Assembly: GCA_022822785.1 (NCBI GenBank)
Contig: JAJEAL010000013.1
Location: 73,118 to 116,453 of the forward strand
From: Candidatus Poribacteria bacterium
GTDB taxonomy: Bacteria; Poribacteria; WGA-4E; PCPOR2b
Direction of reading: 5' to 3'
DNA: 43,336 bases
Shown here: positions 2,483-8,174 of the stretch, piece after piece
Layout of the letters: the number at the start of each line of letters is the position of its first letter
Position numbering within the stretch: position 1 is the first letter of the stretch
Translations under genes and position numbers: made by a program
The notes under the pieces: model-generated
The model's input: only the letters and a program-made list of their open reading frames with translations
Databases searched by the model: none
What the model was told of the DNA's origin: nothing

Positions 2483-3325
2483 TTAAGTCATCGTATCCCA
2501 ACGGCTTGGATTTACGCCGGCACCGTCTCGCGCGAACATATCTTCCGGACGATGATCAAGCTCCCAACTCCAACCTTTGGTATTAAGTGGTTGGAGAAAA
2601 CGACGTGCGACTTCAGGCGCTTTCGCCAAATCTTCCGCATTCCATTCGTCTACAGGTTGGATAGGAGACGCCCACGCAGGTCGATAGCCGTAAAGCAATA
2701 CCCGACGTATTCCGGCTGTTCCCTTGTAAGGATGGGCACCGTGAAAGATACGAGGCCCGAAGAGTACAGCATCTCCTGCTTTCGCCGGCAGCGCGACCTC
2801 TTCAGGATGGGCGTCGTATCGGATATAGGGCTGCGCGTCAGGGTGGAGACAGAGATGTGAGCGTGGGATAAGGCGGAAGGGACCGTTCTCCGGGGTGAGG
2901 TCATCCAGATAGTAGGAGACACGAACAATCACCGGGGCGGTCCAGAGGTAACCACCAAGATTCGATCCGTAAGGATAGCCGTCAGTGTGCATAGCGACGC
3001 CAATCGCCCCCGGTTTGTAATACCGGTATCCACCGCTGAAGAAGATGATATCGGGTCCAATCACACGCTCCAAGAATTTAATGACCGGCGGGTTAGCAAT
3101 GAGTTCACCCAAGGCGCATCCATGCCATTGGGGTTGGCAGGTGGCGTTCCCTTGCCGGTCATGGTAGCTGCTGTGCTCGGTAGGCAAACGAGCGGTCTCT
3201 GCCCGTAGTTGCTCGACTTGCTCAGGAGTGAGCGCGTCTGGGAGCACGACATATCCCTCAACTTCGAGGTGACGAATCTGGTCAGGAAGTGACAGCTCCC
3301 GCCAATCAGTTGTAACGATATTCAT
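2483..3325 (-). CDS. PhyH-family Fe(II)/2-oxoglutarate dioxygenase
   Basis: A 280-residue protein, the usual length for the phytanoyl-CoA dioxygenase family. The iron triad is visible: H113-T-D115 (AMHTDGYPYG) and H195 (IFHGAHPY), with Arg207/208 (IRRVLLYGYRP) as the likely 2-oxoglutarate carboxylate ligand. The FRLIPRSH strand and AKAGDAVLFGPRIFHG are typical of the fold. Such enzymes hydroxylate an organic substrate using O2 and 2-oxoglutarate; the substrate cannot be inferred. GGGGG lies 6 bases before the ATG. It lies 81 bases downstream of a Gfo/Idh/MocA gene on the same strand, a pairing I often associate with catabolic clusters in this kind of genome. Confidence 0.9.
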   Translation of the reverse strand: MNIVTTDWRELSLPDQIRHLEVEGYVVLPDALTPEQVEQLRAETARLPTEHSSYHDRQGNATCQPQWHGCALGELIANPPVIKFLERVIGPDIIFFSGGYRYYKPGAIGVAMHTDGYPYGSNLGGYLWTAPVIVRVSYYLDDLTPENGPFRLIPRSHLCLHPDAQPYIRYDAHPEEVALPAKAGDAVLFGPRIFHGAHPYKGTAGIRRVLLYGYRPAWASPIQPVDEWNAEDLAKAPEVARRFLQPLNTKGWSWELDHRPEDMFARDGAGVNPSRWDTMT

Positions 3326-3406
3326 CGGTTCCCCCTTTCCGATGATTGTATTGATCGATGACTCACGGTAGAATTCTACAAACCGATCAGCCCTCTTGAC
3401 TTCAGA

Positions 3407-4438
3407 TTACAACGGTAGTGAAATGGCTTTGCCGCTCATCATGCTGCGTGTAACGGCTTCGGTAAATTCCATATACTTCACACCATCTTCAAAATTTGTA
3501 TGGGTGATGACTTCATTCCCGCGAATCGCACTGATAAACTCCTCTTCCACTCGCCAACCACCCTCTTCTTCGGCAGGGATAGGAATTTCGGCAAGCGCAT
3601 CATCGCCGTTCTGTCCCCCGTAGAGATTATTATTGGCAAAACGTAGAGTGCCCGTGCTACCGAATATGAACGCTTCAGGACCGTCAACCAAACCGGAGAC
3701 ATTGGAAATCTGCACGTGCATCTGTGCCCCACACGCCATGTCGCCTACAATATCGATATGCTGTGGAATCCGAGTAGGACGCATAACACCGTCCGCATCC
3801 TTGCGCATCCTGACATAGGTTTTCCCCATCGCCATAACTGATGTCGCTTCGCCAACCCAACGCAGCAGCGCTTCATACCAGATACCCATGCTCATGATAT
3901 TGAGGCCGCTCAAGTTAAAGTCGTCGCGCCAGTGCATAGCCGCATCAGGGTCTAGGAAAGTGCCGCCCGCACGGACCTCAATCGCCAAGACATCGCCGAT
4001 ATAACCTTCAGCGATGAGACGTTTGATAGTGTTATCCACACGCAGGGAGAACGGTGAGGGCACGATTTGCGCGATTAGATGCACATTCTCACGAGAGGCG
4101 CTGCGCATCGTATGCGCCTCCTGTGCGTTCATAGCCATTCGCGCCTCACACATCACATGCTTATCTGCCGCTAACGCTGCCAATGTAACGCGGCAGTGCA
4201 TGTAGGGCCAGGTGCCAATAACAATTGCATTGGTATCCGAGGCAGCAACCAGTTCCTGCCAGTTTTCGTAGATTGTTGGGATGCCGAACTCCTGTGCGAC
4301 TCGCTCAGAAGATTCGCGGCTACGGTTGCAGACGCTGATAACTTCGACGCCATCAATTGCCTGGAGTTTTGGAATATGGTGGGTTCTTGTGTTGGCACCA
4401 GCACCGACAACACCCACACGAATTGTATCATTACTCAT
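3407..4438 (-). CDS. Gfo/Idh/MocA-family oxidoreductase with altered EKP motif
   Basis: A 343-residue protein with an N-terminal Rossmann fold (RVGVVGAGANTRTHHIP, NAD(P)-binding) and the C-terminal alpha/beta domain of the family (DVLAIEVRAGGTFLDPDAAMHWR; GLVDGPEAFIFGSTGTLRF). Members usually oxidise or reduce sugars, inositols or their acids with NAD(P). The conserved Glu-Lys-Pro motif, which carries the catalytic lysine, reads E98-A99-R100 here (HVMCEARMAMNAQEA), so normal hydride-transfer chemistry is in doubt. AAGGAGG lies 6 bases before the ATG. It is the first gene of a probable two-gene unit with the PhyH gene after it and is divergent from the second PhyH gene. Confidence 0.88.
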   Translation of the reverse strand: MSNDTIRVGVVGAGANTRTHHIPKLQAIDGVEVISVCNRSRESSERVAQEFGIPTIYENWQELVAASDTNAIVIGTWPYMHCRVTLAALAADKHVMCEARMAMNAQEAHTMRSASRENVHLIAQIVPSPFSLRVDNTIKRLIAEGYIGDVLAIEVRAGGTFLDPDAAMHWRDDFNLSGLNIMSMGIWYEALLRWVGEATSVMAMGKTYVRMRKDADGVMRPTRIPQHIDIVGDMACGAQMHVQISNVSGLVDGPEAFIFGSTGTLRFANNNLYGGQNGDDALAEIPIPAEEEGGWRVEEEFISAIRGNEVITHTNFEDGVKYMEFTEAVTRSMMSGKAISLPL

Positions 4439-4577: not shown

Positions 4578-4606
4578 TTGACAGTCTCAGTTCTTTTTAG
4601 TATGAT
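4578..4606 (+). promoter_or_regulatory. Sigma70-type promoter for the second PhyH gene
   Basis: TTGACA (4578-4583), a 17-base spacer and TATGAT (4601-4606). The start codon is 66 bases further on. Confidence 0.7.
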
Positions 4607-4671: not shown

Positions 4672-5517
4672 ATGAACGAACGTGAGAAATTTTTGTTTGA
4701 TCTACAAGGTTTTCTTTTAGTAAAAGACATCCTGACTCCAGAGGAAGTTGATGCGCTCAACGCCGCCGTTGATGCGAATTTTGATAAACAGGTTGAAGAC
4801 AATAATTCAGCTGTCGGCGACTCTAAAACGCTTGCCGGCACACACAAGCGCGGCATGTTCACTGGCATGTTGTCGTGGCCCAAGCCGTGGTGTCAACCGT
4901 TTCGAGATATTATTGTTAACAAGAAGGCGATACCGTACCTAGATGCCATTCACGGAAGAGGTTGGCGATTAGATCACTCCCCTTTTATTTTGACCTCCGA
5001 TCCCGGCACCGAGGGTTTGGTTCTTCACGGTGCGACTAATCACCGATTTTTTGGCGCGGCATATTATATGTACACCAACGGGCAGATGCGGTGCGGGATG
5101 GTGGTACTTCAGTATCAACTTGCAGATGTTGAGGAGGGGGACGGAGGGCTCTGCGTCGTTCCGGGCAGCCACAAAGCCAATTTTCCGTGCCCGAAGGAAA
5201 TCCGAGAGTGGGAAGAAAATCAGGAGATTGTTTATAACGTGCCCGCTAAAGCCGGCGATATGATTATCTTCAACGAGGCGACAATTCATGGAACACTCCC
5301 TTGGACGAATCACGAGCGCGAACGCCGTTCGTTGCTCATCCGCTACTCGCCGAAGTATCTTCACTACGCCGGCGGCTACTACGATGTAACTTTTCCTGAA
5401 TGGGCTGATGAGCTGACTGAAGCGCAGCGTGCACTTTTGGAACCACCTTATATCTACAATCGTCCGTTGCTCGAAGAAGACGGAGAAACGGTCGTCCGTC
5501 CCCGTGCTGAGTACTGA
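4672..5517 (+). CDS. PhyH-family non-haem iron protein with HGA in place of HxD
   Basis: A 281-residue protein with the PhyH fold: an N-terminal helix pair (LTPEEVDALNAAVDANF), EEGDGGLCVVPGSHKANF, AKAGDMIIFNEATIHG and a late Arg-rich strand (RRSLLIRYSPKY). Aligned with the PhyH gene at 2483-3325, the first iron histidine is H119 (codon 5026-5028) and the Asp two residues later is replaced by A121 (LHGATNH). The second histidine is H206. Loss of that carboxylate is the hallmark of Fe/2OG halogenases such as SyrB2, which belong to the same superfamily, but it also occurs in uncharacterised and possibly inactive members. A TTG at 4657 is in frame, but AAGGA lies 6 bases before the ATG at 4672, so I use the ATG. 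Confidence 0.87.
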   Translation: MNEREKFLFDLQGFLLVKDILTPEEVDALNAAVDANFDKQVEDNNSAVGDSKTLAGTHKRGMFTGMLSWPKPWCQPFRDIIVNKKAIPYLDAIHGRGWRLDHSPFILTSDPGTEGLVLHGATNHRFFGAAYYMYTNGQMRCGMVVLQYQLADVEEGDGGLCVVPGSHKANFPCPKEIREWEENQEIVYNVPAKAGDMIIFNEATIHGTLPWTNHERERRSLLIRYSPKYLHYAGGYYDVTFPEWADELTEAQRALLEPPYIYNRPLLEEDGETVVRPRAEY

Positions 5518-5564: not shown

Positions 5565-8174
5565 TTATGTTCGGCGTTGATGCCATAGCGCCGAAATTAT
5601 GGCGGTCATTGGAATGGTCAGCACAAGTCCAAGGGTGCCAGCCAGTAGACGCACGATTTCGGCGGACGCAATCCCGACGCTCAAAAGCTCTACTGTGGGA
5701 GATTGGAAAAGGTCAAGATTAGGTGTGGCAACCGCCATAATAAACAGAAATTCTACCCCCAAATAAGCGAACACCAATGTATTGACCATGGTTCCGAGGA
5801 TATCAGTACCGACATTCATTCCGGATGTGATTAACCTCCAAGTAGGCATGTTCGGATTTGCTCGGCGTATCTCTTCCATTGAGGAAGAGACTTCAATGGC
5901 ACCATCAACGGCTACGCCGAGCACCCCCATCAACATTCCTGCGAGGAGCACCTGGCGAAAATCGAAAGGGGGTGTGCGAGTAGCTTCGATGATGTCTGCG
6001 GAGACCGCATTTTCTAACCCAGAGAAATGGAGATAGTTTTGGGCAAACATAACAATCAGCCCGGCGACAAGAATACCCCCCATTGTACCAAGCACGGCTG
6101 AAAAAGTTTTTGGACTTGGACCGATCACAAAGACGAGGGATAGGAATGCAATCATGCCAGAACTCAGGGTAACGATTAGGACAGCATTTTCACCGCGTGA
6201 AATCAACGGGATCATGAAGAAATAGAGAATTAATCCTGAACCGATCATTGCACAAGCAGTACGTATCCCTTCGTTTCGTCCGACAATAATAATTGCCACC
6301 AACATCAATCCAAACATCCAGATTAGAACTCGGTCTCGACCGTACTCTTGGACAAGATTGACCAGACTAATTTGGTCAGGCGACCCTCCGACCCGGCAAA
6401 GGACAATATCGCCCGGTTCCGCGGGGATGCTCAATAGGTCCACTTTATGGTTGAGGATATTCCGCAGGATAATCGTTTGACCCGCGTAGAGCCCCGATAA
6501 CATTTCGACTTTCAGGATATGATGTTCTGTTGTCGCGTCGTAAACATTGAGTTTGCCCTCCGCCTCGCCAGCAGAAAATGTAACCTCATTTTTTTCATCC
6601 CTAATGAGCCATTTGGTATCCCTCCATTCGTGCATTGAAACAGTGAGATCATCGGATAACGGCAGGTTATGGTCCTCAAAGGCTTGTCGTAAATCTTCAG
6701 GCACCTGCCGGCGTTCCAGACCGCTTTTTTCTGTGGCGTCCACACTAAACAGCAGAGGGGCATTCGACTCAAGGAGAGTAATGACTTTCCCCTTAGCATA
6801 TTCCGATCTAGAGGTGAGATTACCATTTGCGTCATGATGTTCGACAATTACGGCTGACGAACGGTTGATTCGATGGTAAAAATATTGTGTGCCCACAAGC
6901 ACAACAACTAGTGCGATTGGCACTGCTAAACGGGCTTTGCTTCTCGGATCATCGGTATGGAATAGCTCTTCAAGCTCCTCCTCCGAGGGTAAATCCTCAT
7001 CAATCTCCGACAGGTTGATTTTCCGATACTTGGTTAAGACACCAGCGATTGTCGCAGCAATTGGAACAGTCAAAACTAACCCGATGGTGCCGACGATTGC
7101 TTGTGTAATAGCGACCGCCGTTGCCTCATCGTTCGCTAAACGGAGGAAGGGGTAAAGGAATCCGACTTCCGGAAATTCAATCCGAGGGAGCAGCATTGTA
7201 ATCATGTATGCCCCAAGGTAGGCGAAGATCAGCGTATCCGCCATCGTTCCCATAATGTCGCGCCCCACATTCAATCCCGCGCGAATAGCTTGGCGCACAG
7301 TGACGTTTGGGTTGACCTGCTTAACTTCATAAACAGAAGAGGAGATGGACATACCGACATCCATCATTGCGCCGACCGCGCCTAGAATCATCCCGGCTGC
7401 AAGAATCCCTTTGAAATCCCAATAATGTGACTCTGGTGTCCGCCATAGGGCAATACCGAGTTCAAGAAATCCAAATTCTTGCGATAATCCGGTAAACAGC
7501 ATTGCCTGTTGGCTGATGACAGACAGAAATCCAACGGCGACTAATCCACCAAGGGTACCTAGTACTCCGGAAATCACCTTAAAGCTGAAGCCAGCAATCA
7601 GCACAAAGGTTGTAAGAGTCAATAACGCAGCGACAAGCAGGGCAGCCGCGATGGGATTAAACCCTTTGAGCGTTAAGGGCACTAAAATATACAAAATACC
7701 AAAAGCAGTGACAAACAGCGTCAATATTGCGCGTATTCCCTTCATGCCGGCGACCAGAATTATTAGGATTCCCAACATCGCGGCAAGATAGAGCAGAAAA
7801 GGTGTTCGGAAATATTCGAGCATTCGTACATCGTCACGTATCTCGCTCAGTGTTGTATCAGCTTGGCGCCTGAGGGGCATTTCAAGGAAAAGGACATCTT
7901 TTGTGCGTATCACCCGATCTCCAAATGCCCGTCCTGTCCAAATGTTGTTGACCTGAACGGTCTCGCCTCGAAATTTCCCAGAGATGACACGAAAAGTTAT
8001 AATCTGATCGACATCTTCGCTTGTATCCACCTTTGTCACCCGTCCGAGGCAGACCAACGACTGCAAGGCTCCATGTTGCACAATCTCGTTGAATCGGAAA
8101 AGCTTGATATGTAGCACTAGGACAGCTACGAGAATTGTTAGTATCCCAAAGATTTTTAGATTTCTTTCATTCAT
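5565..8174 (-). CDS. Double-length YibE/F-family multi-pass membrane protein
   Basis: An 869-residue protein made of two successive YibE/F-like modules. Each has an extracytoplasmic beta-rich part (FRVISGKFRGETVQVNNI in the first, KVEMLSGLYAGQTIILRNIL in the second) followed by several membrane helices. Matching motifs occur in both halves: GVLGTLGGLVAVGF / AVLGTMGGILVAG, AAGMILGAVGAMMDVGMSIS / LAGMLMGVLGVAVDGAIEVS and NVGRDIMGTMADTLIFAYLG / NVGTDILGTMVNTLVFAYLG. An acidic cytoplasmic-type linker (SEIDEDLPSEEELEEL) joins the halves. Known YibE/F proteins carry one module of about 350-420 residues and have no firmly established function; transport has been suggested. AGGAAA precedes the ATG. 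The gene is convergent with the PhyH gene at 4672. Confidence 0.85.
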   Translation of the reverse strand: MNERNLKIFGILTILVAVLVLHIKLFRFNEIVQHGALQSLVCLGRVTKVDTSEDVDQIITFRVISGKFRGETVQVNNIWTGRAFGDRVIRTKDVLFLEMPLRRQADTTLSEIRDDVRMLEYFRTPFLLYLAAMLGILIILVAGMKGIRAILTLFVTAFGILYILVPLTLKGFNPIAAALLVAALLTLTTFVLIAGFSFKVISGVLGTLGGLVAVGFLSVISQQAMLFTGLSQEFGFLELGIALWRTPESHYWDFKGILAAGMILGAVGAMMDVGMSISSSVYEVKQVNPNVTVRQAIRAGLNVGRDIMGTMADTLIFAYLGAYMITMLLPRIEFPEVGFLYPFLRLANDEATAVAITQAIVGTIGLVLTVPIAATIAGVLTKYRKINLSEIDEDLPSEEELEELFHTDDPRSKARLAVPIALVVVLVGTQYFYHRINRSSAVIVEHHDANGNLTSRSEYAKGKVITLLESNAPLLFSVDATEKSGLERRQVPEDLRQAFEDHNLPLSDDLTVSMHEWRDTKWLIRDEKNEVTFSAGEAEGKLNVYDATTEHHILKVEMLSGLYAGQTIILRNILNHKVDLLSIPAEPGDIVLCRVGGSPDQISLVNLVQEYGRDRVLIWMFGLMLVAIIIVGRNEGIRTACAMIGSGLILYFFMIPLISRGENAVLIVTLSSGMIAFLSLVFVIGPSPKTFSAVLGTMGGILVAGLIVMFAQNYLHFSGLENAVSADIIEATRTPPFDFRQVLLAGMLMGVLGVAVDGAIEVSSSMEEIRRANPNMPTWRLITSGMNVGTDILGTMVNTLVFAYLGVEFLFIMAVATPNLDLFQSPTVELLSVGIASAEIVRLLAGTLGLVLTIPMTAIISALWHQRRT

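Follow-up and report, generated by a model that had tools for sequence, protein, structure and literature searches.

The stretch of DNA analysed here (43,336 nucleotides, hereafter the window) comes from the genome of a sponge-symbiont Candidatus Poribacteria. On its forward strand, positions 4672 to 5517 encode a 281-amino-acid protein that sequence comparison identifies as a putative Fe(II)/2-oxoglutarate (2OG) oxygenase of the PhyH family (PF05721; E = 4.5e-17, 63.5 bits against a gathering cut-off of 22), belonging to the same clade as HygX. The reading frame starts at the ATG at 4672, with AAAGGA upstream, and the orthologues keep this start as well. The gene had been credited with its own promoter in a preliminary description of the locus, and a sigma-70-like TTGACA-17-TATGAT is indeed found at 4578 to 4606 (forward strand), as a consensus match only (11/12).

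Two genes lie upstream on the reverse strand: a Gfo/Idh/MocA-family oxidoreductase (3407 to 4438), a divergent neighbour given here for context only, and a canonical PhyH paralogue (2483 to 3325) with H113-T-D115 and H195, which served as our comparison protein. Downstream, an 869-amino-acid membrane protein (5565 to 8174, reverse strand), apparently made of two similar halves and putatively YibE/F-like, adjoins the gene only within the genus. Synteny around the gene as a whole is kept within the genus and gone in other families. For this reason we do not count the MocA gene and the PhyH neighbour as partners, and we rejected the neighbourhood as a clue to the substrate. Among the relatives, neighbouring genes are mostly catabolic (UxuA, MR/MLE, sulfatase, MocA) or housekeeping, and we found no carrier protein, NRPS/PKS or natural-product cluster among the neighbours scanned.

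In the AlphaFold model, strand βII of the protein ends with H119-G120-A121 (5026 to 5034, forward strand), in the place where the comparison protein has its H113-T-D115. This contrast, the starting point of the preliminary description, holds, as both motifs share the same alignment columns. The rest of the iron and cosubstrate site is retained, as had also been described: the distal iron histidine H206 at the start of strand βVII (5287 to 5289, forward strand), PGSH at residues 164 to 167, and R218-R219 (5323 to 5328, forward strand), which from family knowledge and by analogy with PhyH enzymes we take to be the arginine binding the 2OG C5-carboxylate. Both histidines, the arginine and PGSH are near-invariant among relatives. 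An intact HxD misplaced elsewhere in the protein is ruled out, since H119 and H206 occupy the canonical columns of the alignment. Orthologues 82-94% identical, all from Candidatus Poribacteria genomes, have HGA or HGS at the motif, and Asp and Glu are absent from position 121 in all relatives of our first collection scan. The loss of the acid is thus neither chance nor sequencing error, and we regard the loss of the HxD carboxylate in this protein as confirmed.

Is alanine or glycine at position 121 itself conserved, as would befit a halide-binding site? The check, suggested with the original description, gave a negative answer. Position 121 is A or S in relatives 64-92% identical, T at 60%, D in two relatives at 57-61%, Y at 54% and W at 51%, while G, R, H, N, V, Q and E occur in more distant ones. 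Judged from these sequences, the variation is drift at a site without a fixed role. Other relatives, 38-73% identical, belong to Latescibacterota, Gemmatimonadota and Chloroflexi bins.

PhyH domains number at least 167 in the window's genome of 5.6 Mb, or roughly one every 34 kb, which agrees with a published account of abundant phyH genes in Poribacteria (PMC3909097). Reading the motif from ungapped residues, we classed 137 of the 167 as HxD and 30 as non-HxD (16 HxG, 4 HxA, 3 HxS and others). Across the phylum, 55 of 59 genomes have 4-39 strong matches each to the clade of the window protein. In a quick tree of 222 domains, built with the motif columns removed and with SH-aLRT support values, a single clade holds all 71 non-HxD domains together with four HxD/E members and HygX. 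The whole clade is supported at 69, a 72-domain subclade that includes HygX at 92 and the local group of HygX at 42; HygX sits on a long branch, and its exact placement is weakly supported. On this tree, the loss of HxD is a trait of one lineage and is not peculiar to one gene, and the clade makes up a large family of HygX relatives that has been overlooked.

HygX is also the best PDB match of the window protein (4xc9/4xca/4xcb/4zpi; E 4e-11 with the single sequence, 1e-16 with a profile). A Foldseek search with the model returned HygX chains for all of its best 15 matches, some of them with Ni/2OG, Ni/2OG/hygromycin B or Fe bound. A protein of this fold that carries HxG thus binds metal as well as 2OG. 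The gene for HygX of Streptomyces sp. SAT1 lies in the hygromycin B cluster, adjoining APH(7'')-Ia, and its full-length product, the hygromycin B orthoester (orthosomycin) oxygenase and the sole characterised member of the clade, reads LHGGN ... NEALMHGT. The two proteins have in common a motif without a carboxylate (HGG or HGA) and an N-E-A-x-x-H-G-T turn. However, they are only about 20% identical, and the aminoglycoside-type cluster around hygX differs from the unrelated housekeeping and catabolic genes around the window gene; no orthosomycin-type antibiotic cluster was found in the window or near the relatives examined. The abstract of McCulloch's 2015 HygX study is said to mention variation in metal coordination, which would fit a relocated ligand.

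Scanning all alignment columns for acids that appear upon loss of HxD, we obtained two strong candidates, E202 and D157. E202 (5275 to 5277, forward strand) lies four residues before the distal histidine, in the turn between strands βVI (197-201) and βVII (206-209), at the metal end of the barrel (AlphaFold model, pLDDT 80). An acid occupies its position in 96% of the clade versus 1% of the rest, while R218 is conserved at 97% in both. Counted from the glycine of AGD, an acid is found at +7 in 66/69 non-HxD domains versus 6/151 HxD domains. One branch has Asp in the same place, and another has Asp with a turn one residue longer. This retention, with Asp replacing Glu in two forms, fits a role of the carboxylate at the metal. 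In three domains, both histidines are present and the acid is absent altogether. D157, whose association with the clade is comparably strong, was rejected, because by standard DSBH topology the turn preceding βIV, in which it falls, is at the opposite end of the barrel; D101, E114, D10 and D34 were set aside as less specific or located in N-terminal helices.

On the tree, HxD loss and E202 gain amount to roughly one event (4 and 5 changes, respectively). The swap having arisen about once, the tiny Fisher p-values reflect relatedness, that is, conservation within one clade and not repeated coevolution; a covariation test on independent pairs was uninformative, with only two such pairs, as the trait has changed too rarely. 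EvdO1/EvdO2, EctD and human PAHX share the fold and PF05721 with the window protein and use HxD. In the stretches visible in the PDB matches, EvdO2, EctD and DhiD have no acid at the E202 position. A further comparison comes from HctB, whose halogenase domain is described with two histidine ligands and a Glu (Glu223) four residues before the distal His227; this Glu lies close to the chloride, and one QM/MM model puts it on the Fe-Cl axis (PMC6218459). A carboxylate at the E202 position can therefore face the vacated coordination site. Most likely, E202 takes over the carboxylate role of HxD, and we infer from the sequence comparison that it is a direct iron ligand. An alternative acidic ligand was just what the preliminary description had named as evidence against a halogenase; E202 provides a clade-specific candidate for one, its contact with iron being a deduction from conservation and position.

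Taken together, these observations suggest that the window protein is probably an active Fe(II)/2OG oxygenase of HygX type that does not halogenate and in which the third iron ligand has moved from HxD to E202. H119 and H206 would hold the iron; the carboxylate lost at A121 would most likely be substituted by E202, at the end of βVI beside H206; and R218/R219 would bind 2OG. Attack by O2 and decarboxylation would then yield an Fe(IV)=O species, which would take a hydrogen from the substrate, probably a sugar or another polyol-like compound, with hydroxylation or C-O bond formation as the plausible outcome. The wider proposal, for which we consider the case about evenly balanced, is that the clade forms a widespread branch of 2OG oxygenases, present in numerous copies in the genomes of sponge-associated and marine bacteria, and that its members share a re-sited facial triad H119/H206/E202, the carboxylate being provided by the βVI-βVII turn in place of HxD.

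Alternatively, H119 and H206 alone could hold the iron; E202 could be a second-sphere residue, tuning the site or binding substrate, and a water molecule could occupy the third site. Human AspH, a functional hydroxylase, has an HXG...H motif, two histidine ligands and no HxD acid (PMC10947486), although it belongs to another 2OG oxygenase family. The three clade domains that keep both histidines without the acid speak for such a site. Against it stands the conservation of the acid in all but three of the 69 non-HxD domains, with its two forms of Glu-to-Asp exchange, and we consider this arrangement unlikely, though still a serious alternative to a relocated ligand.

The preliminary description had named, among other possibilities, an unrecognised halogenase lineage. 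What stands of this proposal is the lineage: the trait is shared by a recognisable group in which the HxD carboxylate is gone. SyrB2-type enzymes have Ala or Gly two residues after the first histidine, and substitution by Asp or Glu at this position eliminates halogenation (PMC4019311). The window protein has this HxA and, around it, a PhyH-like DSBH fold and two iron histidines; its likeness to SyrB2 and CytC3 (TIGR01762) thus extends to the fold, HxA/G, the distal histidine and the arginine. A halide could occupy the vacated Asp site, with E202 in the second sphere as proposed for Glu223 of HctB, a true halogenase with its Glu at an equal offset from the distal histidine. However, that Glu is unique to HctB among halogenases, the others having Ser or Lys (PMC6218459); SyrB2 and CytC3 have Ser where the window protein has E202, and HctB chlorinates carrier-bound acyl chains, while the neighbours scanned here include neither carrier proteins nor a natural-product cluster. 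Ala/Gly is not fixed at position 121, where relatives 51-61% identical have Thr, Tyr, Trp or Asp. With the NCBI chlorinating-enzyme model TIGR01762, the window protein scores 26.9 bits, far short of the cut-off of 226.3. Hygromycin B, the product of the clade member HygX, contains no halogen. On this comparative evidence, halogenation by the window protein is unlikely rather than disproved; for the vacated site, E202 is a conserved candidate acid.

That the protein is degenerate or serves for binding only, as had also been suggested, seems very improbable: a canonical ligand is lost, PhyH genes are present in very many copies and the metal-less N-domains of tandem relatives (see below) show that decay occurs in the clade, but the acid loss is a lineage trait with the rest of the site near-invariant, orthologues have been maintained at 82-94% identity and, within the genus, in synteny, and HygX binds Fe and 2OG.

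The tandem relatives, of about 510-670 amino acids, have two PhyH domains each. In the N-domains, one or both of the iron histidines are missing, often with V or Q instead, while the C-domains keep an intact pair. The acid at the E202 position is present in 7/19 N-domains and 16/19 C-domains (hand count; Fisher p 0.007, relatedness ignored), so it is lost more often where the metal site is lost. Proteins of this kind (L120 and L198 in the window's genome, and L263-L278) represent a pseudoenzyme-enzyme fusion in several bacterial groups. In the three whose C-domain lacks the acid (L120, L198 and L277), the N-domain of the same protein still has Glu or Asp there, as if it supplied the missing acid, though with n=3 only.

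Genome mining takes HxA/G as a mark of iron halogenases (e.g. PMC12871659). The present clade, which can reach dozens of copies in a single genome, bears HxA/G, yet it clusters with an oxygenase and conserves a Glu in the active site. If the triad is indeed re-sited, the HxG/A motif is unreliable as a sign of halogenation, and the usual Asp side of the iron would be opened to bulky substrates. Such proteins could be flagged by a simple rule, an acid seven residues beyond the glycine of AGD, and the clade offers a testable claim on the re-siting of a facial triad.

Four clade members have both acids, HxD/E and the acid at the E202 position. HGD occurs together with E202 in relatives 57-61% identical (G000:C133:2831-3658, which is L071/L147, and L248), possibly as an HxD reversion or relic, and would make a natural pair in which to compare the two sites. 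A clade member with an acid at both positions (L229; LHHE and SEALVHGT) is unannotated on plasmid pBB1 of Cupriavidus necator N-1, at about 2746-3628, in a host that is not among the usual phyla.
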